A DNA stretch of 42,941 bases, taken from the NCBI GenBank assembly GCA_030592655.1, contig JAUVIQ010000003.1, forward strand, positions 1 to 42,941. The letters are read 5' to 3'. Positions 293-37,700 of the stretch are shown piece by piece. The first letter of the stretch is position 1; each line of letters begins with the position of its first letter. The stretch comes from Planctomycetales bacterium. GTDB lineage: Bacteria > Planctomycetota > Phycisphaerae > SM23-33. A model generated the notes under the pieces. The model saw only the letters and a program-made list of their open reading frames with translations, was not told the origin of the DNA and searched no databases. A program made the position numbers and the translations under genes.

Positions 293-6466
<6,174 letters not shown>

Positions 6467-6525
6467 CCGCGACCACGCCACCAGGGCCGCCTTTATTGTT
6501 GTAAAGAGAATATTGAATATTGAAT

Positions 6526-7853
6526 CAGTACTGTCCGGTTAAAGATTTTAGAATTTCAGTTAAGACTATTACAAATAAAAGGATATAGCAAATTTTGATC
6601 GCAATCGACTTGAAATCCACCGTAAGTTTTGGCCATGCATCCTTTGTCTTGATGCGGAAAGGACGGGCCAATGTACACGGGGCGAATCGTATTCACCCAA
6701 CTGATGGACTTCATGCCCATCTGGGATTTCAGGCGTTGCGTCAAAAGGTATCGTGGCAACCATCGTGCGAGAACTTTTACCTGTCTCGATCAATTTCTCT
6801 GCATGGCCTTCGCTCAATTGACGTACCGCGAGAGCCTGAGAGACATCGAAACTTGTCTCCGCGCCATGCAGCCCAAACTCTACCATGCGGGAATCCGGGC
6901 AAAGGTATCGCGAAGCACGCTCGCCGACGCAAACGAAAAACGAGACTGGCGCATTTATGCCAACTTCGCGCAGGTTCTTATTCGCATTGCCAGAAGATTG
7001 TATGCCGGAGACGACTTCGGCGTGAACCTGGAGCAAACGGCGTATGCGTTCGATTCGACGACCATCGACCTGTGCCTGACGTTGTTCCCGTGGGCGCAAT
7101 TCCGAAAGCGAAAGAGCGCGGTCAAACTCCACACGCTTATCGACCTGCGAGGGAATATCCCTTGTTTTATCAGCATTACAAGCGGCAAAACGACCGACAA
7201 CATGATCCTGGACGAACTGGTCCTGGAGCCAGGTGCGTTCTACATCATGGACAGGGGATACATCGACTTCGCCCGGCTCCGCAGATTCGATACCAACGCA
7301 GCATATTTTGTGGTTCGCTCCAGGAGCAAACTGACTCATCGCCGACAATCTTCTCGACGCGTGGACAAATCGACCGGTTTGCGAAGCGACCAGACCATCG
7401 TCCTTACCGGCCCGTTGACATCGCAGAGGTATCCTGCTCGGCTTCGCCGAGTCAGTTACTTCGATGTTGGGATGGACAAGCGATTGGTTTTTCTGACGAA
7501 CAACTTCACGCTGCCGGCCCTGACCGTTGCGCAGCTCTACAAATGTCGCTGGCAGGTGGAGCTGTTTTTCAAATGGATCAAGCATTATCTTCGGATCAAG
7601 GCGTTCTATGGCACGTCGCTCAATGCCGTGAAGACACAAATTTGGATTGCGATCAGTGTTTATGTGCTGGTAGCCATCCTGAAGAAGGAGTTGCGAATTG
7701 ATCGTAGTTTGGGCGAAATCCTGCAAATTATCAGCATTACACTTTTTGAGAAAGTCCCTATAGGACAAGTACTTACGAGTTTTGATCTTCAAAACGGAAT
7801 ACATGGTTCTTGTAACCAATTGAAACTATTCAACTTATAACCGGACAGTACTG
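6526..7853 (+). mobile_element. IS4-family insertion sequence, ~1328 bp, 16-bp terminal inverted repeats CAGTACTGTCCGGTTA, 9-bp target duplication ATATTGAAT (6517-6525 / 7854-7862)
   Basis: TIRs and direct repeats read from sequence; single intact transposase inside. Confidence 0.95.
6671..7840 (+). CDS. IS4-family DDE transposase
   Basis: 389 aa; DDE residues in FDSTTIDLCL and YIMDRGYIDF; YREK signature Y-KC-R-WQV-E-LFFKWI-K; stop codon lies in the right TIR. Confidence 0.95.
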   Translation: MYTGRIVFTQLMDFMPIWDFRRCVKRYRGNHRARTFTCLDQFLCMAFAQLTYRESLRDIETCLRAMQPKLYHAGIRAKVSRSTLADANEKRDWRIYANFAQVLIRIARRLYAGDDFGVNLEQTAYAFDSTTIDLCLTLFPWAQFRKRKSAVKLHTLIDLRGNIPCFISITSGKTTDNMILDELVLEPGAFYIMDRGYIDFARLRRFDTNAAYFVVRSRSKLTHRRQSSRRVDKSTGLRSDQTIVLTGPLTSQRYPARLRRVSYFDVGMDKRLVFLTNNFTLPALTVAQLYKCRWQVELFFKWIKHYLRIKAFYGTSLNAVKTQIWIAISVYVLVAILKKELRIDRSLGEILQIISITLFEKVPIGQVLTSFDLQNGIHGSCNQLKLFNL

Positions 7854-8063
7854 ATATTGAATAGAGAATGTTGAATTTCGAAGTAAAAAGAAAAAAAGAC
7901 TCTGAATCCACGTTTTGGGTGTTATTCATCTTCTTTTTCTTCTTTTTACTTCGAAATTCAAAATTCTTTGTTCAATATTCATTATTCAAAAAAAAGGCAG
8001 GCGGCGTGGTCGCGGTGTTTGGGCAACAGGCCCTGATTGGCGGTGGTATAACTCGGATAAAAT

Positions 8064-9210: not shown

Positions 9211-11064
9211 CTACAAACTCCTGGAAGCCTCCTTTGTGTTTCCATATGCGCCCATGTTCAAACGTCCGCCGTTCGGGGCCGGCTCTTTTGAGAAATCAAC
9301 CTTCGGGTCGCCCGCGTCGATGCAGGGACTGCTTGCAGAATCCTTTACCCATTTCTTTGCCTTTGGATCCCACCGACCGGCCTTGCTTTTCAGGTGGAAA
9401 TTGCCGTTTGCGGGATCGGCAAAGATCGGCCTAACCGATATGTCCCCTGCCCCCGGAGAAACGCTGTTATAATTGCCCTTGGCGTTGTTGAAGACGTTAT
9501 TGTAGTTGGAGGAACCTTTGTCGAAATCCAGCCCGTAACCCTTGTTGTTGGCAATTATGTTGTTCCGCACGTGAAAGGTATAGACTGCCGTCCACTTCTT
9601 GGCTCGCTCAATGGCGATTCCGCCTTTGCCGCAATTGTAGATCACGTTATTGATTATCGTGGCGTCGCCGCGGCGCCATTCTGTCATTCCATATCCATAC
9701 TCAGTGCCGTAAATACCGTAGCCGGGACAATTATAAACAACATTGTTTCTGATCCGGACATTTTTCCAATGCTTCTGCTGCCTGAGGCCGATGCCGTTGA
9801 TCTTTGCCCCCGTTACGATATTGTTTTCTATACGAACGTTGCATGAGCCGCATCCGCGCATCCATATTCCCGACTGGGAGCCTTTGCAGATATTATTGAA
9901 AACATGAGCGCCACTCGACTCGATCTGTATGTTTCCATTCACGCCGGTGTTATCCAGATAGTTGTGGTGGATAGAAACGTTGTTATTTCCTGCTTCGAAG
10001 ATCAGTCCCCAGGACGAACGGTAGCGACCGGTCAGTGTGTTGTAAGCGGCCACCGCGTTCCTGGCGCAAATGGACGTTATACGGGAGTGTTGAATGGTAT
10101 TACCTATTATTCTCATTCCTTCACTCCTGGTCATATATGACCTGGCGCGACTATCCCGGATACCGTTTGTAGTAATAAAATGGCCGGCGAAAGAGAGATC
10201 CTTAAGACCTTCAATTGTCAGGTTGTTCACCTGGCAGGGGTGGAACAGGTTGCCGCGATGTTTCGTGTAGGTGCTGGTGATCTTGAATCCTTTGAAGGTT
10301 ATGTTTTCAAGAGGGGGATGCCCTTCCCACTTCTCGTTCATACTGAACAGGGCAGGAGCACTGAAGTATCTCTGCCCCTTCGGTATCAGGTCGGTGAACT
10401 CGGTTGAATCCAGAAGTCTTATCTCGGAGTCATGCGTGCCCCATAATGTAACGTTGCTCTTGTTGATAAATATCGCTTTTTTGACCTCATGCACGCCCGT
10501 GGCGAGTTCGACAATTCCGCCTTCAGAAGGGACCGCGTCTATCGCCTTCTGAATTGATTCGCCGGGTTTGACCTTTTTGACGAAGGTCGAGACGATCCAT
10601 TCCTTTCGGCATTGCGGCGGATAGTAGCCGTCCTTTATCGTTTCGGGAATTTCTCTGCGATCCTTGTCTGTAATCCATTTTTTCGCCTTCCTGTCCCATC
10701 GGCCCCAGGGAAACTTCCTGAAATCTTCAACCAGTCCGGCGACGTACCGCTCCTGAGACTTATTGGTCGATATGACCTGTATTTTCCACAGCCCCTTCTT
10801 GCCGGGAACGGTCCAGGTGAATGAGGCGCCTCCAGCCTGCGGTTTGGCTTCTCTATTCACCTGCCAGAGGTATTTGGCCGCACCTTCAGCCTTGACGCTG
10901 AAAGTAATCTTTTCTCCCGGCTTGACCTGAAATGCGGTCCCGGAGTCGCCGGTTTTGCTGTTGGACCAGGAGATGATTTTAGGTGGTTCTGCGCCTTTGG
11001 CTAAAGAATTCAAAGACACACAGCAGATCATCGCCATACTTGTCATCATCATTTTTCCAGACAT
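9211..11064 (-). CDS. Secreted right-handed parallel beta-helix protein with N-terminal PKD-like domain
   Basis: ORF extends to 11202; likely start is M47 (MSGKMMMTSMAMICCVSLNSLAKGAEPP, signal peptide). Beta-helix 'NNVIYN', 'RNNIIANNKGYG'; C-terminal 'NMGAYGNT'. Confidence 0.85.
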   Translation of the reverse strand: MSGKMMMTSMAMICCVSLNSLAKGAEPPKIISWSNSKTGDSGTAFQVKPGEKITFSVKAEGAAKYLWQVNREAKPQAGGASFTWTVPGKKGLWKIQVISTNKSQERYVAGLVEDFRKFPWGRWDRKAKKWITDKDRREIPETIKDGYYPPQCRKEWIVSTFVKKVKPGESIQKAIDAVPSEGGIVELATGVHEVKKAIFINKSNVTLWGTHDSEIRLLDSTEFTDLIPKGQRYFSAPALFSMNEKWEGHPPLENITFKGFKITSTYTKHRGNLFHPCQVNNLTIEGLKDLSFAGHFITTNGIRDSRARSYMTRSEGMRIIGNTIQHSRITSICARNAVAAYNTLTGRYRSSWGLIFEAGNNNVSIHHNYLDNTGVNGNIQIESSGAHVFNNICKGSQSGIWMRGCGSCNVRIENNIVTGAKINGIGLRQQKHWKNVRIRNNVVYNCPGYGIYGTEYGYGMTEWRRGDATIINNVIYNCGKGGIAIERAKKWTAVYTFHVRNNIIANNKGYGLDFDKGSSNYNNVFNNAKGNYNSVSPGAGDISVRPIFADPANGNFHLKSKAGRWDPKAKKWVKDSASSPCIDAGDPKVDFSKEPAPNGGRLNMGAYGNTKEASRSL

Positions 11065-11137
11065 TTCCTGGTTCCTCTTACTTGATTTCCTGCTTATCTG
11101 TTTATCCTGACGACCCATACCATATTCCCATAAGCGT

Positions 11138-14100
11138 TTATTTGCCGAACGCGTACAGATACCCATCCGCCGAGCCGATATAGACAGTTCCGTCTGCACC
11201 AATGGCCGGTGATGATACCACCGAACCGCCCGTCAGGTATTTCCAGAGCAGTTTACCCTTCGGGCTGAGGCAATAGACATAGTAGTCGTGCGAACCGAAG
11301 TATATCTTTCCTTCAGCGTCAATCGCAGCGGAAGAATGGATACAATCGCCGGCCTTGAATTTCCACTTCTCTTTGCCGTCTTTGTCCAAAGCGTAAAAAT
11401 AACCGTCACGCGAGCCGAAATAAACTGTTCCATCCTTCCCAATGGCGGGTGAAGAAGCTACCTCATCTCCGACCTGGAAAGACCATTTCAAGTTCCCGTC
11501 AAAACCGATGGCGAACATGTGTCCGGTTATTCCCTTACTTACAGCGGGATGCCCGCCCTGCTGGCAGCCTATATAGACGGTCTTGTCCTGAACCGATATG
11601 GCTGGGGAAGATAAAGTCCTGCCCTTGGCTTTACAGGTCCACTTTACCGTCCCGTCGGGCTTGATGGCGTGGAGTCCGCTGAAGTTTCCGCTGCCGCCGA
11701 CATAGATAGTCCCGTCGGGAGCAATTGCCGGCGAAGAGACGTGAGCGCCATGCCAGAGCCAGCGGAGTCCCACCTTGATTGGGCACTGCCATTTCACCTT
11801 CCCGTCCGGTAACATCGCGTACATGCGATACTCCGAGCCGCCTTTGCCTTCTTTAGTTTGGCGGCAGGTCGAAACGAAGTAAGTCGTATTATCAGGACCC
11901 GGAATGGTATAACACTGGTTCATGCCGTACGACGGGTACCCGTATTCCCACTTCTGTTTTCCCTCCGGGCTGACGGCCAGAAGGGTTCTGCGCCTGCTTC
12001 TATAAACCACTCCGGCATAGATTGTCCCGTCAAGGCCGACGGACGGGGCAAGCGCATTTTTGTAGAACCATTTACGGGTGCCGTCGGGGTTTATCGCGTG
12101 GATGCCGCTGTCCGGCACACTGGGGGTGATATAGATTGTTCCATCCGGTCCAATCACCGGAGAATATCCTATTATCTGACCACCGGTCTTGTACCGCCAG
12201 AGCACGTGGGGCTTCGAAGGTCCGACGTAGGGGCTTCTGCCTGTATGGGCATAGTCGGGACCGCGAAAACAAGGCCAGGGGCTTTTGTCGGTCTTGACCG
12301 GCGGACGAGCCTTCCTTCCCGGCTCGGCGGGTATGGCAACATGATCTACCGTTACCTTGATTGTCCGGGTCGGTTTGTCGGGGTCTTTGCGATACCAGTC
12401 CGGCCCGGGGTTTATCCCCTTGACCTCGCCATAGCGACCATCGGGTACAGCCACCTGCACTTTGTAGGTGAAATCCTGCCGACCATTCTCGTCCTGAACG
12501 AAATCGGTCAGCACAAGGGTATTGGCCTTGTCGTCGGGCAGGGCCGAGTGGCCGTTGCCGGCCACCGCCAGGTGCGTTCGCATATCGTTAACGTCAAGCC
12601 AGTTCTTGATCCATCCGTTATGAGTAACCATCTCGGATACCCAGTAGCGCTTTTCGAGAAGGTTCTCTGCCGGACGTCTCACATTGTCCACTTCATTGAC
12701 CACCCGCATCCTGCATCCGGACACCGGCTTACCTGCCTTATCGACGACGAGGACGTCCAGGTAATACTTGGGAATGACCCACGCTTTACCGCTTTGGACT
12801 TTCAGTTCCTTGAACTTGCAGTTAACCAGACTGACCGTGCAGCCCAACTGCTCGGACTCGTAGGGATAGATAATCCGCCAGTCCCTGAAGCGGTAGCCTC
12901 GCCTGGCTACGATATTGTCAAGACGGCAGTTCGAGATGGTTACCTTATGCAAATCGTCGCCGCCGATGAAGGTCATGTCTATCGGCTTGTCTTTACCGCC
13001 AATGGTGCAGTCTTCTATTCTGAAATCGACCAGTTCCTTACGGTTGTAGAACCACATGCCTTTTTTGCCTTTTCCCTGCTTTCTTTTCTTGTTGTTGTAG
13101 TAACCGCGTGCGCATTTCCAGTAGTTTCCGGCATCGACTTCCACCATATTCACAAATTTGCACCGTTTCAGGACCAGTTCGCCCGGAGTGTCGGGAAAGA
13201 AGTTCCCGCAATTGGATATGGTTGAATCGGTGGCCAGGAACCTGCCTGAGAACGTGTATGCCTCATATCCGCTCCAGTCCTTGTACATTTCCCACCTGGA
13301 CGCGGACGTAAAGGCCCAGAGATAATAAAACTCGTTGTCCGAAGTGATTGTGGCCTTGTTCAGGCGAATAATCGAGCCGTTCTTGACTCGAATCTGGTGC
13401 TCGCCGTCCTTGTTGCAGTGCATCTTAAGTGTTTCGCCGTCGATGATGAGTTCAGACGCCGGATCGACGACAAGGTCGGTATAGCATGTGGCTGTCCTGG
13501 TGGCCTGGTCATAGCGAAAGACTTTCGGGTCGCCTATGGCTTCGGCGATATCCTTCAAGGTAGCGCCGTGTCCGGTTATGACAATGCCCGTCCTTTTCAC
13601 CTCATGGTCGGGCTTGTTCTTCTCCCCGTCGCCCCAATCATCCCTGTACTGGCCGAGGCGTATTGTCTTTTTCGGCCAGACGGGATAGTCATAAACCTGG
13701 ATACCGTCGAGCAATGGCCCGTAGAGTTGCAGGGAACTGATTTCCTTCAGCGTGTTTTCGTTGGCCACGCTGTCGAACCAGAATTCCACGCCGTTCCAGA
13801 TATAGAACCATCCTTCCTTTGTGCGGATTATCCTTATCTGGCGCCACTTGTCGGTGCGCTCGTTCATATTGGCGCAGCATTCTCCCATTGACCGACATCC
13901 AAAACAGTGCTGCCCGACAGGGCCGTACTTCGAAGGTATTTCCCGAAAGTCAAACCCTTCGTCATTGGCCGTCTTGTGGTAAATGTAATGGGGCTCGCCG
14001 TGCGAGATACGCCAGCCGAACCACCCCCTCTTCCTCCTGCCTTCGGCTTTGGGTCTTAACTTGCGCTGGAATATCCAGGTGCCGTAGGCGTTCTTGGAAG

Positions 14101-14641
14101 GTATTGTAATTCGGCCTACGCCTCGGCTGTAGGCATGGGCTGTACAGTCGGGATGCTCTATCTTCTTTTGCTTCGCATCCTTCTTGTAGTCCCACTTTGG
14201 CAACGGCCTGTCCCAGGGGTCTTTCTGCGACCTGTCGGGATAGAAATAGTCGAAGATGACGGGGGCTTCGGATTTAGCAAGCGTCGAGACGACCCATTCC
14301 TGGTGCGCCTTGCCGTCTTTATTGGAAACCTCCAGGTGAATTTCCCAGATGCCCTTCTCTTGGGGCACAGTCCAGCCGAAGGTGTCGGTCTTTGCATCCT
14401 GGACTATCTTGTCAACCCGCCATTCGTATCCCTGCGAACCTTCAGCCTTTACCTTAAAAACGATCTTGTCGCCCGGTTTTGCCAGGTACATTACGTCCCT
14501 GGCGTTATCTTTATTTCGGGGTTTGCCTCCCTCGGAAGAGAATTCTTTTATCACCGGAGGGGCTGCGTGAACGAGACTGCCCGTAATCAACCACGTCAAT
14601 GTAACCAAGCATGACAGCGTTACTAATCTAACCTTTTTCAT
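11138..14641 (-). CDS. Secreted multidomain protein: PKD-like, LamG/jelly-roll-like, beta-helix-like and C-terminal PQQ-type beta-propeller (~8 repeats)
   Basis: Signal peptide MKKVRLVTLSCLVTLTWLITGSLVHAA; repeats such as 'VASSPAIGKDGTVYFGSRDGYFYALDKDGKEKWKFKAGD'. Confidence 0.85.
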   Translation of the reverse strand: MKKVRLVTLSCLVTLTWLITGSLVHAAPPVIKEFSSEGGKPRNKDNARDVMYLAKPGDKIVFKVKAEGSQGYEWRVDKIVQDAKTDTFGWTVPQEKGIWEIHLEVSNKDGKAHQEWVVSTLAKSEAPVIFDYFYPDRSQKDPWDRPLPKWDYKKDAKQKKIEHPDCTAHAYSRGVGRITIPSKNAYGTWIFQRKLRPKAEGRRKRGWFGWRISHGEPHYIYHKTANDEGFDFREIPSKYGPVGQHCFGCRSMGECCANMNERTDKWRQIRIIRTKEGWFYIWNGVEFWFDSVANENTLKEISSLQLYGPLLDGIQVYDYPVWPKKTIRLGQYRDDWGDGEKNKPDHEVKRTGIVITGHGATLKDIAEAIGDPKVFRYDQATRTATCYTDLVVDPASELIIDGETLKMHCNKDGEHQIRVKNGSIIRLNKATITSDNEFYYLWAFTSASRWEMYKDWSGYEAYTFSGRFLATDSTISNCGNFFPDTPGELVLKRCKFVNMVEVDAGNYWKCARGYYNNKKRKQGKGKKGMWFYNRKELVDFRIEDCTIGGKDKPIDMTFIGGDDLHKVTISNCRLDNIVARRGYRFRDWRIIYPYESEQLGCTVSLVNCKFKELKVQSGKAWVIPKYYLDVLVVDKAGKPVSGCRMRVVNEVDNVRRPAENLLEKRYWVSEMVTHNGWIKNWLDVNDMRTHLAVAGNGHSALPDDKANTLVLTDFVQDENGRQDFTYKVQVAVPDGRYGEVKGINPGPDWYRKDPDKPTRTIKVTVDHVAIPAEPGRKARPPVKTDKSPWPCFRGPDYAHTGRSPYVGPSKPHVLWRYKTGGQIIGYSPVIGPDGTIYITPSVPDSGIHAINPDGTRKWFYKNALAPSVGLDGTIYAGVVYRSRRRTLLAVSPEGKQKWEYGYPSYGMNQCYTIPGPDNTTYFVSTCRQTKEGKGGSEYRMYAMLPDGKVKWQCPIKVGLRWLWHGAHVSSPAIAPDGTIYVGGSGNFSGLHAIKPDGTVKWTCKAKGRTLSSPAISVQDKTVYIGCQQGGHPAVSKGITGHMFAIGFDGNLKWSFQVGDEVASSPAIGKDGTVYFGSRDGYFYALDKDGKEKWKFKAGDCIHSSAAIDAEGKIYFGSHDYYVYCLSPKGKLLWKYLTGGSVVSSPAIGADGTVYIGSADGYLYAFGK

Positions 14642-14697
14642 TCTTTTTTCTCCTTGTAAGTTTTTTGAAGTAAAAAGTATTTTTTCTCAATTACCTG

Positions 14698-14757
14698 TAA
14701 CTCATTCTGACCGCCGAGGTTTCGATTTTGATGCCGACTCCGTATTTCCATAAGCAC
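14698..14757 (-). pseudogene. Duplicated 3' fragment of the beta-helix gene (reads AYGNTESASKSKPRRSE*) between two PQQ-propeller genes
   Basis: Reverse complement of 14698-14757 reads GCTTATGGAAATACGGAGTCGGCATCAAAATCGAAACCTCGGCGGTCAGAATGA; near-identical to the true 3' end of the 18221-20089 ORF. Confidence 0.85.
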
Positions 14758-17700
14758 CTAATTGCCAAACGCATACAGATATCCGTCCGCCGAGCCGACA
14801 TAGACGGTTCCGTCTGCGCCGATTGCCGGTGAGGAGAGCACTGAACCGCCTGTCAGGCATTTCCAGATCAACTTACCCTTGGGGCTCAGGCAGTACAGAT
14901 AGTGATCGTGGGAACCGAAGAATATCTTGCCCTCGGCATCGACTGCCGGAGAAGAAAGGACACGGTCTCCCGTCTTGTATTTCCACTTCTCTTTGCCATT
15001 CTTATCTACGGCGTAGAGATATTCGTCACGGGAACCGAAATAAACCGTACCGTCCGACCCTATAGCGGGTGAACAGGTTACCTGATCTCCGACCTTGTAT
15101 CTCCACTTCAGTGAGCCGTCAAATCCAAGGGCAAGCAGGCATCCTCTTGCTTTACTGGAGGCCACGTAAACCGTCTCGGCCGCCACCGAGACAGCCGGAG
15201 AAGATGTAATCCTGCCTCCGCCTTCAGGCGGCGTGTATGTCCATTTTATTTTCCCTTCAGCATTGACGGCGACGACAGCGCTCATCCCATGACCTGCTGA
15301 CCCAATATAGACAGTCCCATCAGGGCCAAAGGCCGGTGCGGACATATGAAGCTGGCGGTAGTGCTTTCCTTTGTCTTTGACTTTGCATGCCCATTTCAAC
15401 TTCCCATCAGGACGGATCGCATACATCTGAAAATTCCGGCCGGACCTGTTCTGTCCTACCCCATAATAGATCGCCCCGTCAGGTCCCTGGATGGGCCAGA
15501 ACCGCCAATGATGCTTCGGGTCTTCGTATTCCCATTTTGATTTTCCTTCCGGACTGAGGGCGCGAAGCCTCGTTGCCCCATGATCGTAACTTTCCGCCAC
15601 ATAGAGCGTTCCATCACGCCCAATGGCCGGGGCGTACGAGCCGGGACTCCAGAGGTGCCTGATAAAAGTCGCCTTGTACCGCCACTTGCGGGTGCCGTCA
15701 GGGTTCACCGCGTGAAGGGTCGGAAGCATCACATTATCGCTTATATAGATTGTCCCATCTCCGCCGATTACCGGCGAGGAGTTTAATATCTCTCCATCGG
15801 TCTTATACCTCCACAGAGGGCGGCATTTTGATGGGCCGACGTGGGGGCTCCTGCCTGTATGGGCATGGTCCGGCCCCCGGAAACAGGGCCAGGGACTCCT
15901 GGCCGTCTTCACCGGTGGGCGAGTCTTTCTTGCCGGGACGGGTTCGGTGGCCTTGTCCAATACCACCTTTACCGTGTGTGCCGGCTTGTTTGGGTCCTTG
16001 CGATACCAGTCAGGTCCGGGGTCTATACCCTTAATCTCGCCGAAGCGACCGTCGGGAGCGATAACCTGCACAGTATAGGTGAATTCCTGTTGGTCGTCCT
16101 GGCCCCGTATATAGTCAGTCAGCACTAAAGTATTTGCTTTATCGCTCGGTGGGGCTGTGTGTCCGTCTTCGCCTGTGGGAACCGCCGTTTTCAGGTCGTT
16201 AACGTCCAGCCACACCTTAATCCACCTGTTATAGGTGAGGTTCCGGCCCACCCAGTCGCGCTTCTCTGCGAGGTTCTCGGCCGGATACTTCACATCGTCC
16301 ACTTCATTGGTAACCCGCACCCTGCATCCGGACGCAGGCTTACCCTCCTTGTCAACAGCCAGAACATCCAGGTAATACTTAGGCACAACCCACGCCTTGC
16401 TGCTCCGGGCCTTCGGCTTCTTGAACTTGCAGTTGAGAAGACTGACTGTGCAACTCATCTGCGTGGTCTCGTAGAAATAAGGCCTCCGCCAGTCGTTGAA
16501 CCGGTAGCCCTTTTTAGCAGAGATATTATCAAGACGGGAGTTTAGAATTGTTACCCTGTGTAAGTCGTCCCCACCGATGAAGGTGATGTCCAGCGGCTTT
16601 TCCTTGCCGCTGATGGTGCAGTCTTCAATCCTGAAATTGACCAGTTCCTTGCGGTTATAGAACCACAATCCCTTTTTGCCCTTTCCTGCCATTCGCTTCT
16701 TTGAAGAGTCGTAAGTACGTCCTTTCCAGTAGTTTCCGATATCGACTTCCACCAGATCCACCAGTTTGCACCTCCTGAGAATCATCTCACCCGGACTGTC
16801 AATGAAGAGATTCCCGCAGTTGGAAATGGTTGCATCGGTGGCCAGGAATCTGCCTGAGAAACTCATAGCGGGGTATCCGCTCCACTTTTTGTAGTGTTCC
16901 CACTTGCAGGCGGAGGTGAAAGCCCAGAGGTAATAGAAATCGTTGCCGGAAGTGACGGTGGCGTTGTTCAGCCGGACAGTGGAGCAGTTCTCTACACGAA
17001 TCTGATGCTCGCCGTCCTTATTGCAGTGCATCTTGAGGGTCTCGCCGTCAATGACAAGTTCGGCTCCGGGGCTGATGACCAGGTCGGTGTGGCAGGTCGC
17101 GGTTTTTGTGGCCGGGTCGTATCGAAAGATTTTCGGGTCGTTTATCGCCTCGGCGATGTCCTTCAGCCTGACGCCGTGCCCGTCTATGATGATACCTTTC
17201 CTTTTTTCCTGGTGGTCTTTCTTCCAGGAGCAGTCATCTCTGTACTCGTCGAAGCGTATCGACTTTTTCGGCCAGACCGGTCGGTCATAGACCTGCACGC
17301 AGTCAACCCACCTGCCCCAGAATCGCAGTGAGTCAACTTCCTTGAGCGTGTTTTCGTTGGCCAGGCTGTAGAACCACAGCTGCCCGTCGATCCAGACCCA
17401 GAACCACCCGTCCTTTGTTCGGACTATCCTCACCTCAGCCCAGTCATCGGTATCGTCGGCCCATGACGAGCAGCATTCTCCCATGGACGATCGTCCCATG
17501 CAGTGCACCTTGATAGGGCCGTACTTCGAAGGCAGCGTAAAGTCCCATGCCCCGCTGTTCATTGGTTTGGCGATATAATAATAATAACGAGGGTCCTCGC
17601 CGCGAGATATGCGCCACGAAAATGAACCGCGTTTGCCTTTGGGTCCGTACCTGCGCTGCCATATCCAGGTCCCGTAGGCGTTCTTGCAAGGTGTTACTGC

Positions 17701-18201
17701 CACAGTGCGATGAAGTGAGCAGTAGGAAAGGTCGATTTTCTTTTTCGACTCCCACTTCGGCAGAGGTCTGCCCCAGGGGTCCTTCTGCGACCGGTCGGGA
17801 CAGAAATAGTCAAACAGGACCGGCGCTTCTGATTTGGTCAGCGTCGAGACCACCCATTCCTGGTGTGCCGCACCGTCCTTGTTGCTCGCTTCAAGATGAA
17901 TTTCCCAGACGCCTTTTCCATCAGGCACAGTCCAGGCAAAGGTGTCGGCTTTTGCTTCCTGAACGGCCTTGTTGACCTGCCATTCGTATTTTTCCGCCCC
18001 TTCTGCCTTTACCTTGAAGGCGATCTTGTCGCCCGCTTTTACCAGGTACATTACGTCCCCGGCGTTATCTTTATTTTGGGGTTTGCCTCCTTCGGAAGAG
18101 AATTCTTTTATCACCGGCGGGGCTGCGTGAACGAGACTACCCGTAACCAACCACGTCAATGTAATCAAGCAGGACAAGGTTACCAATCTAACCTTTTTCA
18201 T
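14758..18201 (-). CDS. Secreted multidomain PQQ beta-propeller protein, paralog of 11138..14641
   Basis: ORF extends to 18270; likely start is M24 (MKKVRLVTLSCLITLTWLVTGSLVHAA). Collinear similarity to the neighbouring ORF throughout. Confidence 0.85.
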   Translation of the reverse strand: MKKVRLVTLSCLITLTWLVTGSLVHAAPPVIKEFSSEGGKPQNKDNAGDVMYLVKAGDKIAFKVKAEGAEKYEWQVNKAVQEAKADTFAWTVPDGKGVWEIHLEASNKDGAAHQEWVVSTLTKSEAPVLFDYFCPDRSQKDPWGRPLPKWESKKKIDLSYCSLHRTVAVTPCKNAYGTWIWQRRYGPKGKRGSFSWRISRGEDPRYYYYIAKPMNSGAWDFTLPSKYGPIKVHCMGRSSMGECCSSWADDTDDWAEVRIVRTKDGWFWVWIDGQLWFYSLANENTLKEVDSLRFWGRWVDCVQVYDRPVWPKKSIRFDEYRDDCSWKKDHQEKRKGIIIDGHGVRLKDIAEAINDPKIFRYDPATKTATCHTDLVISPGAELVIDGETLKMHCNKDGEHQIRVENCSTVRLNNATVTSGNDFYYLWAFTSACKWEHYKKWSGYPAMSFSGRFLATDATISNCGNLFIDSPGEMILRRCKLVDLVEVDIGNYWKGRTYDSSKKRMAGKGKKGLWFYNRKELVNFRIEDCTISGKEKPLDITFIGGDDLHRVTILNSRLDNISAKKGYRFNDWRRPYFYETTQMSCTVSLLNCKFKKPKARSSKAWVVPKYYLDVLAVDKEGKPASGCRVRVTNEVDDVKYPAENLAEKRDWVGRNLTYNRWIKVWLDVNDLKTAVPTGEDGHTAPPSDKANTLVLTDYIRGQDDQQEFTYTVQVIAPDGRFGEIKGIDPGPDWYRKDPNKPAHTVKVVLDKATEPVPARKTRPPVKTARSPWPCFRGPDHAHTGRSPHVGPSKCRPLWRYKTDGEILNSSPVIGGDGTIYISDNVMLPTLHAVNPDGTRKWRYKATFIRHLWSPGSYAPAIGRDGTLYVAESYDHGATRLRALSPEGKSKWEYEDPKHHWRFWPIQGPDGAIYYGVGQNRSGRNFQMYAIRPDGKLKWACKVKDKGKHYRQLHMSAPAFGPDGTVYIGSAGHGMSAVVAVNAEGKIKWTYTPPEGGGRITSSPAVSVAAETVYVASSKARGCLLALGFDGSLKWRYKVGDQVTCSPAIGSDGTVYFGSRDEYLYAVDKNGKEKWKYKTGDRVLSSPAVDAEGKIFFGSHDHYLYCLSPKGKLIWKCLTGGSVLSSPAIGADGTVYVGSADGYLYAFGN

Positions 18202-18220
18202 TCTTTTGTCTCCCTGTAAC

Positions 18221-20089
18221 TCATTCTGACCGCCGAGGTTTCGATTTTGACGCCGACTCCGTATTCCCATATGCGCCTATATTTGTCCTTCCGCCGTTCG
18301 GGACCGGTTCCTGCGAAAAAACAGTCTTCGGGTCGCCGGCGTCGATGCAAGGACTATGCACGGCGTCTTTTACCCATTTCCCGGCCTTCGGGTCCCATCG
18401 ACCGGCTTTGCTCTTGAGATGAAAATCCGCTTTGGACGGGTCGGCAAATAACGGGGCAACGGAAATATCGCCGGGCCCGGCGATACATCCATTGTAGTTG
18501 CCCTTCGTATTGTTCCAGACATCGTTATGGCCAAGAGTGATTTTACCCTTGATGGCGTTGATTCCGTAACCTTTGTTATTCGCGATTATATTGTTGGATA
18601 CGTTCAGGAAAGAATAGAACTTACTCTTCAATACAATACCGTCGCCGCTGTTGTTGTAGATTACGTTGTTTATTATGTCCGCATTGCTGCCGGGGCTGAC
18701 ATTATAACCTATGTCCGTCATGTATATTCCGAAACCGTTGCAGTCGAATATGCGATTGTTCACGATGAGTATGTTGTTTATTGGTCCCTGGGGTTTCGCC
18801 ATAATGCCCGCACAAAATTTTCCGTATTGCCTCGCCCCCCTTACAGTGTTATTGATAACTATCGCATCATGTACACTTGCCTCCATGTATATGCCTCTCT
18901 GACTTGCATTTACAACCTCATTGTCGCGCACGTTATAAGGCCCTCCAAGGTCCATGCACAAGGCAGCATTCACGCCACAGTTCTCGACGTAGTTACCCAC
19001 TACGTGTATGTCCCTGTTACCGGTGTCAATGTGCAGACCCCACGTAGTCTGCGGAAAATCCTTGAACGTATTGTTGACCACATAGACGGGGTTGGAGTGA
19101 TAGAGCGACATGGCGCTGTGATGTCCGATACAATTCCTGACAATTACGTTTTTACTGCGTACTTTCGCGTCGCCGTGCGAGAATGAATTTGTAACGACTA
19201 TCCTGCCAAGATAAGAGGAATTTTCTATGCCCTCGACGACCAGGTTGTCAACGTTCCAGGCGAGTATCACGCACCCGCCTCGAATGCGCTTGGTAACCGA
19301 ACCTGTAACCTTGAATCCGCGGAATACAATGTTCTCAACTTTGCCGAACGTGGCCCCGGTATTATCGCCCTTCGGTCTTTCGTTTGGTATTACAAAGACT
19401 CTCCGCACGCCGTCGTGTGCTTTTATTTCCGACTTGCGCGTTCCACAGACAACAACGTTGCTTATCTTGATGTAGATAGTCTTCGGCGCGTCGTGCAGGC
19501 CGGGGGCGAGTTCCACTATCCCGCCTTCGGGCGGAAGTGAATCTATCGCCTTCTGGATTGACTCACCCGGCTTGACTTTTGTCAGGAAGGTGGAAACTAT
19601 CCAGTCCTTGCGCGACTCGAAGGGATAGACGTTCAGGTCGATTACTTGTTGAATGAAGCCGCTGAAATCAATTTTCCGCCCCCTTCTACCGACGCGAGGT
19701 TTGAATCGGTCCTTCCAGACCGCGAAATCCTTCTGTGCCCATTCTTCTCGCGCCTTGTTCGTCGTCTTGAGACATATCTTCCACATCCCCTTCTTCTCAG
19801 GCACAGCCCAGGTGAACGATGCGTCTTTGGCTTTGGCCTGAACCGTTCCATTCACCAGCCAGACGTATTTCTCTGCGCCTTGGGCCTCGCCACGGCGAGT
19901 CTCGCCTGCGGCGGACTTGACGGTAAAGGAAATCTTCTCTCCGGGTTTGGCCTGAAATACGGTCTTTGCGTCTCCGGTTCCGGTGTTGGACCAGGAGGTG
20001 ATTTTGGGAGGTTCAGCCCCTTCAGCCGGTGAACTCAAAGACAGGCAGGAAAGTGCAACTACGATCGCTGTAACCAATCTTGTAGGCAT
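18221..20089 (-). CDS. Secreted right-handed parallel beta-helix protein, paralog of 9211..11064
   Basis: 622 aa; signal peptide; N-terminal 'EPPKITSWSNTGTGDAKTVFQAKPGEKISF'; beta-helix repeats; 'TNIGAYGNTESASKSKPRRSE' C-terminus. Confidence 0.85.
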   Translation of the reverse strand: MPTRLVTAIVVALSCLSLSSPAEGAEPPKITSWSNTGTGDAKTVFQAKPGEKISFTVKSAAGETRRGEAQGAEKYVWLVNGTVQAKAKDASFTWAVPEKKGMWKICLKTTNKAREEWAQKDFAVWKDRFKPRVGRRGRKIDFSGFIQQVIDLNVYPFESRKDWIVSTFLTKVKPGESIQKAIDSLPPEGGIVELAPGLHDAPKTIYIKISNVVVCGTRKSEIKAHDGVRRVFVIPNERPKGDNTGATFGKVENIVFRGFKVTGSVTKRIRGGCVILAWNVDNLVVEGIENSSYLGRIVVTNSFSHGDAKVRSKNVIVRNCIGHHSAMSLYHSNPVYVVNNTFKDFPQTTWGLHIDTGNRDIHVVGNYVENCGVNAALCMDLGGPYNVRDNEVVNASQRGIYMEASVHDAIVINNTVRGARQYGKFCAGIMAKPQGPINNILIVNNRIFDCNGFGIYMTDIGYNVSPGSNADIINNVIYNNSGDGIVLKSKFYSFLNVSNNIIANNKGYGINAIKGKITLGHNDVWNNTKGNYNGCIAGPGDISVAPLFADPSKADFHLKSKAGRWDPKAGKWVKDAVHSPCIDAGDPKTVFSQEPVPNGGRTNIGAYGNTESASKSKPRRSE

Positions 20090-20184
20090 TTTTGTTTCTC
20101 CTTTCGCTCTTTCAGTAAGTTACTCGAACTGACCGATTTAACCTGAATATCTGCCGTAAGTTTTGTTTTTATTTTACAAAATGT

Positions 20185-20271
20185 CGTAGCAACACGTACC
20201 ACGGGCGTCTCGCCCGTGAATTCTGTGGCTTTTTCCTGCTTTTTCGCACGGGCGAGACGCCCGTGCTACGT
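20185..20271. repeat. GTAGC...CACGGGCGTCTCGCCCGTG / CACGGGCGAGACGCCCGTGCTAC hairpin
   Basis: Each arm is itself palindromic and the arms are mutually complementary; located between two codirectional genes. Confidence 0.85.
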
Positions 20272-20300
20272 ATTCGGTCAGTTTGAGTAACGTAGTAGTT

Positions 20301-22151: not shown

Positions 22152-22502
22152 TTATGCAGCCACGGCTACGGGCGCTTCGTAAGCAGCCAGACCCAGAGCG
22201 GAAGGATCAAACTCCAGACCCGCACGGTACCCCTCCTCGATCTTTCGACAACGAACTACCGTGGCGTTCAGATTCCTTCGCTTATCATCAGGATGTAACG
22301 GAACAGATAAGACAATCCGCTGACCGGGATACAACCACCGTTCACTTACCACACCCATCCCGCCGCGAGAAATATCGACCATATGAAGGGTGTTTCGGAC
22401 GTCTCCACCGTCAGGGTCAAGCCGAACCCCGTGAAGCATCATCTGAAGATGCGTACGAGGATAACGACGACGCTCCGGAGGACTATAGCATAAACTATTC
22501 AT
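22152..22502 (-). CDS. PilZ domain protein
   Basis: 116 aa; 'ERRRYPRTHL' and 'VDISRGGMGV' (RxxxR...DxSxxG). Confidence 0.8.
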   Translation of the reverse strand: MNSLCYSPPERRRYPRTHLQMMLHGVRLDPDGGDVRNTLHMVDISRGGMGVVSERWLYPGQRIVLSVPLHPDDKRRNLNATVVRCRKIEEGYRAGLEFDPSALGLAAYEAPVAVAA

Positions 22503-22598
22503 AGCACATGCTCCAAAAGTAACCCAAGTCCTTCCGATGTATCGACTGGTAAAATAGGCGACTTAAGCAATCTGCGTAAAATATTACGATTGAAACAA

Positions 22599-22790
22599 TA
22601 GCAGGGATACAGGGGATGCAGGGGATGAAAAAAGAATATTGAATATTGAACAGAGAATTTTGAATAACGAAGTAAAAAAAACATTCCTCAAAGCTAACTC
22701 GTTTCTTTTACTTCAGAATTCGACATTCCGTGTTCATTATTCAATATTCATTTTTTCTGTTTATCCCCTGCATCCCCTATATCCCTGCTA
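22599..22790. repeat. Nested hairpin: outer stem TAGCAGGGATACAGGGGATGCAGGGGA (26/27 paired), inner stem GAATATTGAATATTGAACAGAGAATTTTGAATAACGAAGTAAAA
   Basis: 22599-22625 pairs with 22764-22790; inner arms ~22634-22677 and ~22706-22750. Confidence 0.9.
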
Positions 22791-22806
22791 ATTTTTTTTT
22801 CGCGGG

Positions 22807-22834
22807 TTGTCAGAATGAAAAGGTGTGGTATAAT
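22807..22834 (+). promoter_or_regulatory. Sigma70-like promoter TTGTCA-N16-TATAAT
   Basis: Direct reading; immediately upstream of the 22861 ORF. Confidence 0.6.
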
Positions 22835-22860
22835 AGATGTTGACGGAAAGGTTTTATGCG

Positions 22861-23406
22861 ATGCCGATAAGACAACAAAAACAACGAGTCTCGCAGCTGC
22901 GGCTGTTACTGTTCAGCAGGCCTGTGCATCCGGAACTGTTCGAGATATATCACGACCACCGTATCGTCAAAGACGGATACGAGGCCCAGATTTGGATTAC
23001 AGGCGTAAGCCACTTGACGGCATTCCATCGCGGTAAAGCGACAGTAACGGAAATAATTGCCGATACCTCGGCGATGATGCCGAGACACGGGAAACTGGCG
23101 TCGCTACGACTCCGGGGCGAAAAAGACCACGAAGTCGATGCCGGTCCGATACGACACATGATGAGTTTCCAGGTCGAGACGATGAGCCAGCGACTCTACG
23201 AGCGCGTCCATGCCGACCTGGTCGAACAGGCCGACCGGGGCGGATTGTTCCTGTCGTTCCCGGAGTGGGTTCCGGCCGATACGCTGGAACCATTCACCTA
23301 CATCGACTACGACGCCAAGCCCGGACATCTGCACGTATTCGCCTACCATGCATTCCCCGATGAGTTGACACTCATAAAAACTCAGTCTATATTCGAGCTG
23401 ATCTAG
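22861..23406 (+). CDS. DUF2617-like protein of unknown function
   Basis: ORF 22837..23406; ATG at 22861 preferred because a TTG start at 22837 would fall at or before the predicted transcription start. 'RPVHPELFEIY' motif. Confidence 0.6.
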   Translation: MPIRQQKQRVSQLRLLLFSRPVHPELFEIYHDHRIVKDGYEAQIWITGVSHLTAFHRGKATVTEIIADTSAMMPRHGKLASLRLRGEKDHEVDAGPIRHMMSFQVETMSQRLYERVHADLVEQADRGGLFLSFPEWVPADTLEPFTYIDYDAKPGHLHVFAYHAFPDELTLIKTQSIFELI

Positions 23407-23580
23407 GAACCACGAATTGCACGAATAAAAGACGAATTACACAAATTTCAGAAAAAGAAAAAACAGTTCGTGTAATTCGTAAAATTTGTGGTATTCTACG
23501 GGATTCGTGTAATTCGTGAAAATTCGTGGTATTTTGTAGAATTCGTGTAATTCGTCTTTTATTCGTGTAATTCGTGTTAA
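23407..23580. repeat. TTCGTGTAATTCGT word array/hairpin (four exact 14-nt copies plus inverted variants)
   Basis: Exact copies at 23467, 23504, 23542 and 23562; inverted forms 'acgaattgcacgaataaaagacgaattacaca' at 23410-23441. Confidence 0.9.
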
Positions 23581-27409: not shown

Positions 27410-27522
27410 TCACCGCAGAGATCGCAGAGAACGCAGAGAACAAATAAAAAAACTTTTTTGTTTCTTTTCTCTGCGGTCTCTGCGTGCTCCCCTTGGGACG
27501 GCGAACAGCCGCCTGCGGTGAA
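27410..27522. repeat. GCAGAGAACGCAGAGA-word hairpin
   Basis: caccgcagagatcgcagagaacgcagagaac...ctctgcggtctctgcg...ctgcggtg. Confidence 0.85.
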
Positions 27523-36034: not shown

Positions 36035-36103
36035 CTAGCAGGGATGCAGGGGATATGATTTTTTCTTTCTTCAATTAAATTTTTATCCCCTGCATCCCTG
36101 CTA
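36035..36103. repeat. TAGCAGGGATGCAGGGGATA hairpin (20/20 paired)
   Basis: 36035-36054 is the exact reverse complement of 36084-36103. Confidence 0.9.
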
Positions 36104-36252: not shown

Positions 36253-36346
36253 AGTAGCCAGTAGTCAGTAGCCTGTAGCCGGGAATGCGTAGCATTGCTA
36301 CGTGAAAACTGACTACTGACTACTGACTACCGACTACCGGCTACTA
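36253..36346. repeat. AGTAGCCAGTAGTCAGTAGCC-word hairpin
   Basis: agtagccagtagtcagtagcctgtagccggg ... ctgactactgactactgactaccgactaccggctacta. Confidence 0.9.
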
Positions 36347-37605: not shown

Positions 37606-37700
37606 TGTAATCAGTAATTGGTAATTAGTAATTGGTAATTGGTCAAAAAATGTTCTGATGCCCAGTTACGAATTACGAATTACTAATTACTGATTACTCA
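37606..37700. repeat. TAATTGGTAATTAGTAATTGG-word hairpin
   Basis: aatcagtaattggtaattagtaattggtaattgg ... ccagttacgaattacgaattactaattactgatta. Confidence 0.88.

Follow-up and report, generated by a model that had tools for sequence, protein, structure and literature searches.

How one palindrome comes to lie in the loop of another is the question raised by positions 22599–22790 of the window, the whole 42,941-nt stretch of DNA analysed here, contig 70 in a draft genome of 2.86 Mb (G000). The outer inverted repeat at this locus, designated F2, has arms of 27 nt with a nonamer period, and its left arm (TAGCAGGGATACAGGGGATGCAGGGGA, 22599–22625, plus strand) pairs at 26 of 27 positions with its right arm (TCCCCTGCATCCCCTATATCCCTGCTA, 22764–22790, minus strand), beyond which a T-run begins at 22791. 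Within the F2 loop lies F1, a palindrome of ~120 bp (22634–22750) recognized by its arms of GAANNNN heptads, its BLAST homologues and its absence from the orthologous F2 hairpin of a sister species, G001. The inner inverted repeat (22628–22682 with 22701–22755) is 82% complementary and closes an 18-nt loop. Folded as single-stranded DNA, F1 and F2 form one continuous rod of -60.8 kcal/mol, compared with -18.0 ± 3.5 kcal/mol for shuffled sequences (z = -12.3), and shuffled sequence of equal length contained no inverted repeat of this class. The paired outer arms and the single-rod fold bear out the original prediction of an F1 hairpin in the loop of an F2 hairpin, and F1 and F2 are two unrelated small non-coding palindromic repeats, the one nested in the other. 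The nested hairpin occupies a divergent intergenic region (22503–22836) between annotated genes for a PilZ protein (22152–22502, minus strand) and a DUF2617 protein (22837–23406, plus strand). A promoter-like TTGTCA-16-TATAAT element, recognized solely by consensus match, lies between the hairpin and the DUF2617 gene (22807–22834, plus strand).

Both families are dispersed through the genome and the genus, which was sampled through three further species (G001, G002, and G003). F2 arms were matched 60 times in G000, where a reversed control pattern was matched 0 times, and 18, 19, and 63 times in the other three species, while BLAST placed ~13 copies of F1 in G000, with dozens more in every one of the relatives. 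With arms of 27–48 nt and periods of 7 or 9 nt, F1 and F2 are short, non-coding, dispersed and bounded by terminal inverted repeats, as are miniature inverted-repeat transposable elements (MITEs). A census of 739 kb (four G002 contigs and the window) identified 115 intergenic hairpins. Arms were periodic in 42 of the 100 that were at least 20 nt long (31 at 7 or 14 nt, 10 at 9 nt), compared with 4 in shuffled sequences; the genus therefore holds a large repertoire of palindromes with heptad or nonad periods, of which F1 was the commonest in this sample. Intergenic regions are short (median 133 bp), and 25% of them, divergent regions included, carry a hairpin. An exact 17-mer was found in only two other genomes of the phylum sample, once each. 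Collapsed F1 hairpins retaining about one heptad pair occur at loci L246 and L088, one of them within an F2 loop, and are likely scars of palindrome deletion; at G002:C8, F1 is likewise collapsed to one heptad pair. At L114 (438–740), a tRNA-Leu-like gene is flanked by an F1 left arm and, on the right, by an F1/F2 remnant, and apparently the same gene adjoins F1 at L040.

Elsewhere in the window, F2 occurs alone with a simple loop upstream of a tRNA-Gly gene (36035–36103, inverted-repeat search), as had been predicted, and the F1 copy at 6467–8021 does have different outer arms. These are CCGCGACCACGCC (6467–6479, plus strand) and GGCGTGGTCGCGG (8003–8015 to within a few bases, minus strand), both read from the sequence. 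The F1 copy that they enclose (6507–7987, assigned by sequence and F1 homology) has its left arm split by an insertion sequence on the plus strand (6526–7853), which was overlooked in the original prediction; it encodes a DDE transposase (PF01609 and DUF4372) and ends with a 9-bp direct repeat, ATATTGAAT. A further nested pair consists of an outer TAAGTTACTCGAACTGACCGA palindrome (20116–20294) around an inner one, CACGGGCGTCTCGCCCGTG (20191–20274). The window also holds periodic hairpin families with 9-nt units at 23411–23576 (CACGAATTA) and 27414–27489 (CGCAGAGAA) and with 7-nt units at 36254–36337 (GTAGTCA) and 37607–37697 (GTAATTG). At 115–199 is a perfect 42-nt inverted repeat carrying GGGGACACCATACTATTTTT, a motif also present in hairpins adjoining a Y1 transposase gene at L224, and because of this shared motif the repeat may be moved by the L224 transposase. 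Among the longer features are an alpha-2-macroglobulin-like protein of 2057 aa (293–6466) and four long minus-strand ORFs (9211–20089) that are mutual repeats, sharing blocks of ~70–80% identity spaced 3.6 kb and 9 kb apart.

The original prediction of one inner unit inside two different outer palindromes was correct as far as it went and undercounted the hosts, as at least six unrelated outer families enclose F1 across the four species. These include F2, GTAGGCTGGG REP pairs, GGGCGTA heptads, GGCATTA heptads, a AAAAGGGGACGGGAGTC hairpin, and the CCGCGACCACGCC palindrome. F1 also occurs outside palindromes, and it is itself the outer hairpin at G000:C8, G003:C214, and G003:C139. None of the nested loci had F1 splitting an outer arm, a class that is harder to detect than loop insertion. 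Micro-palindromes of ~20–36 nt do split arms, those in F2 arms measuring about 31–36 nt, and their persistence there indicates that arm insertions are tolerated. One of them, CACGTAGTGGTGCTACGCAC, is inserted into arms of F1, often at a TTC/AATATTC junction (L062, L069, L090, L097, L126, L144, L151, and L155), and another, GTCGTAGCGAAGCGGAGACTCGCCGTGGCGA, has a fixed place in F2 arms.

Whether such nesting exceeds chance was assessed by aligning the left flank of each F1 locus to the reverse complement of its right flank, with a threshold score of 18, which marks the 99.9% level among unrelated pairs of flanks in a census-derived null. This null replaced an overly strict one in which loci with a common outer family were mixed (3 of 57 loci above its 99% level). 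A spanning outer repeat scoring at least 18 was found at 17 of 57 distinct F1 loci, where ~0.06 would be expected, and only 2 of the 57 had a one-sided hairpin, lying entirely to the left or right of F1 and no more than 100 bp away. These loci were partly collected with a query containing outer arms, so nested copies in G003 and G001 were favored among them. The G000 list is complete and free of this bias; 7 of its 13 F1 copies are nested (P = 9e-6 against a loop share of ~7% of noncoding DNA in the 739-kb census), and when the F2 nests are merged into one event, 4 of 10 loci remain nested (P = 0.003). In the census itself, which is independent of F1, 7 of 10 close hairpin pairs were nested in loops, compared with 25% expected (P = 0.004). 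This count is conservative, since one GGGCGTA/F1 nest whose arms run together was scored as interlocked, and inner elements besides F1 also occurred in loops. Nested arrangements are thus more frequent than repeat density would predict, and inner units are not equally common off-center, such off-center or side-by-side positions being rare.

Orthologous sites in the sister species reveal simple and nested states of the same hairpins. At the site of the window locus, G001 carries an F2 hairpin with a loop of ~30 nt, no F1, and a micro-palindrome in one arm, while G002 and G003 have neither F1 nor F2. Simple/nested pairs or center replacements were found at seven more sites. A simple outer palindrome in one species and the same outer palindrome with F1 in another distinguish the pairs G000:C11/G001:C431, G000:C236/G003:C191, G002:C59/G001:C415, and G002:C65/G001:C339. 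With F1 as the outer element, the hairpin is empty in G002:C20 and filled in G000:C8, and it is empty in G001:C42 and holds a ~300-bp palindromic insert in G003:C214, flanked by a possible 4-bp ACAG direct repeat; at G003:C139, a GC-rich palindrome has taken the place of the F1 center. Comparison by eye of empty with filled sites at ~27 loci showed apparent duplications of ~12 bp, 4 bp, or none, a length that seems not to be constant. Whole families also differ at the same position. F1 in G001 and G002 corresponds to F2 in G000 at the L125 and L120 sites, and a CGCAGAGAA hairpin in three species corresponds to a REP pair with F1 in the fourth. Some hairpin was present at 22 of 38 orthologous positions, compared with 25% of intergenic regions, and mosaic hairpins, whose two arms belong to different families, were found at L128 and, in G000 and G002, at the L118 site.

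Candidate movers were sought among the transposases of these genomes. Y1 transposase genes are present, and direct mobilization of F1 or F2 by a RAYT (the Y1-type transposase of REP elements) was rejected, as none of the 20 Y1 loci scanned had F1, F2, or the GTAGGCTGGG REP-pair motif beside the gene. The IS1272 transposase is assigned to the DDE_Tnp_1_6 domain, and an IS1182/IS1272-type transposase was rejected, this domain being matched once, in G000 only. Among the F1 and F2 loci examined, there was no autonomous parent with F1 ends, and the sole transposase inside F1 arms was the secondary insertion in the window. Copying of one arm from its partner was rejected as well, because the two arms within a copy resemble each other no more closely than arms taken from different copies (similarity for F1 of 0.716 within and 0.748 between copies, permutation P = 0.994; for F2 of 0.612 and 0.631, P = 0.80). 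The slightly lower similarity within F1 copies is as if selection disfavored perfect palindromes. SbcD had no match in the four genomes of the genus, and 13 of 14 control genomes did match. In E. coli, long hairpins are cut by SbcCD (PMC3733652), the absence of which would therefore let such palindromes persist.

Loop-targeted insertion is the best-supported reading of the nests, short of proof; it is favored because one guest has many unrelated outer palindromes, lies centrally, and is rarely side by side with another hairpin, and because arm insertions survive. A preference for entry at hairpin tips, recognized by their shape, with some composites spreading later as units, is given a probability of about one half. 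F2 would have arrived first in the PilZ/DUF2617 intergenic region, and F1 would then have entered its loop in the lineage of G000; this polarity draws on a single sister, G001, and loss of F1 from G001 is possible, given the collapse of F1 to one heptad pair at G002:C8. The entry step presumably recognizes an extruded hairpin or a single-stranded tip rather than a sequence, with the transposase probably supplied in trans. F1 loops in turn receive other elements, and some finished composites were then probably copied elsewhere as units. The original prediction of insertion targeted to palindrome centers is accordingly upheld in part, in that the nesting excess, the central position, and the unfilled sister hairpins favor it, although some nests are probably copied composites. 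It further suggested elements that recognize hairpins or single-stranded DNA; no such enzyme could be tied to F1 or F2. A broader proposal is more tentative: the tip of any extruded hairpin might be a general landing site, read by shape, for unrelated small palindromes, which, with no SbcD detectable, would give rise both to nested palindromes and, from one species to another, to the swapping of whole hairpin families at a given intergenic position.

The nests might instead reflect no targeting at all, if palindromes insert wherever they do no harm in short intergenic regions and the few nests arising in loops by chance are then amplified, either as composites or through recombination between outer arms that they share. 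Junctions look alike among several F2 + F1 and REP-pair + F1 composites, and the F1 tree partly clusters by context (P = 0.014), from which it follows that there were fewer independent insertion events than nests; some nests probably arose by the copying of intact composites and not by separate insertions. The small intergenic space and the moderate loop-nest excess in the 739-kb census also fit untargeted landing, which is nevertheless doubtful given the six or more unrelated outer families and F1 itself as an outer element, the far greater rarity of side-by-side hairpins than of nests among the 57 loci, and the excess that persists in G000 after F2 nests are merged.

It is also conceivable, though unlikely, that breaks or stalled forks at hairpins were healed from another hairpin through shared A- or T-runs, exchanging centers and arms without a transposase. 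Such repair would suit the A/T-rich junctions, the mosaic hairpins, and the replacement of one whole-hairpin family by another at orthologous positions, where hairpins are enriched; against it stand the failure to detect SbcD, the obvious hairpin cutter, in the four genomes, the possible 4-bp direct repeat at one loop insertion, and the lack of homogenization between the arms of a copy. Selection for a terminator or insulator, which would keep some hairpin at each site and purge arm-breaking insertions so that loop insertions are the survivors, is very improbable. It could explain why different hairpins hold the same orthologous positions and why A-runs and T-runs flank F2 arms, but in the window both F2 copies are located upstream of the starts of genes, hairpins occur in divergent regions too, and micro-insertions persist in arms. 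An intrinsic terminator was rejected at the window locus, where a terminator scan called none at 22400–23000 and the divergent gene orientation is wrong for one.

The STRR of cyanobacteria are intergenic heptameric tandem repeats. The TAACTGA repeats of Beggiatoaceae are likewise intergenic with 7-nt units (PMC4679880), and the families described here share this feature with both but differ in that their units build the two arms of long hairpins and in that 9-nt families occur as well. REP elements and REPINs are short dispersed intergenic palindromes mobilized by RAYT transposases (PMC3733652, PMC3116915), and GTAG-class REP elements have been reported from Planctomycetes (PMC3733652). The GTAGGCTGGG outer pairs carry a GTAG-type tag and look like this class, whereas F1 and F2 have neither a GTAG nor a CGTC tag, nor the short stem of that class, and no F1, F2, or GTAGGCTGGG motif flanked a Y1 gene at the 20 loci. 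IS1397, ISKpn1, and other ISs also insert into palindromic repeats, namely REP palindromes (PMC1525189), but each recognizes one REP family, whereas here one guest enters many unrelated hairpins. The MITE-like M1 and M2 elements of pithoviruses are described as ~140-bp palindromes with putative TA duplications, adjacent in noncoding clusters (PMC10664404); they resemble F1 and F2 as two palindrome families close together in noncoding DNA, and differ in being viral and, in that account, adjacent rather than described as nested. A closer parallel in targeting is IS1272, which replaces stem-loops of any sequence without target duplications and for which the authors' model also allows loop entry (PMC5678879). 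Like IS1272, F1 is associated with stem-loops without sequence specificity, being hosted by at least six unrelated outer hairpins, and in many cases here a different hairpin family stands at a site in another species, which may reflect replacement of palindromes as in IS1272 transposition. Unlike F1 and F2, which are non-coding repeats of ~100 bp, IS1272 is an autonomous IS of ~1.9 kb; its target stem-loop is replaced, whereas the outer hairpin is usually kept in the nests, and the DDE domain of its relative is nearly absent here (the one match in G000). A literature search of incomplete coverage returned no report of such nested palindromes in bacteria, and the F1 motif was nowhere printed.

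The nested hairpins are real and genus-wide, and they are a variant of known palindromic mobile repeats. If their loops are landing sites recognized by shape, the genus would be a natural record of structure-guided insertion, which has been reported for IS1272 and is rarely seen in sequence data. With the hairpin nuclease SbcCD apparently missing, the genus would also be a test of what becomes of long palindromes, and the same process would help to account for assembly breaks at repeats in these genomes.
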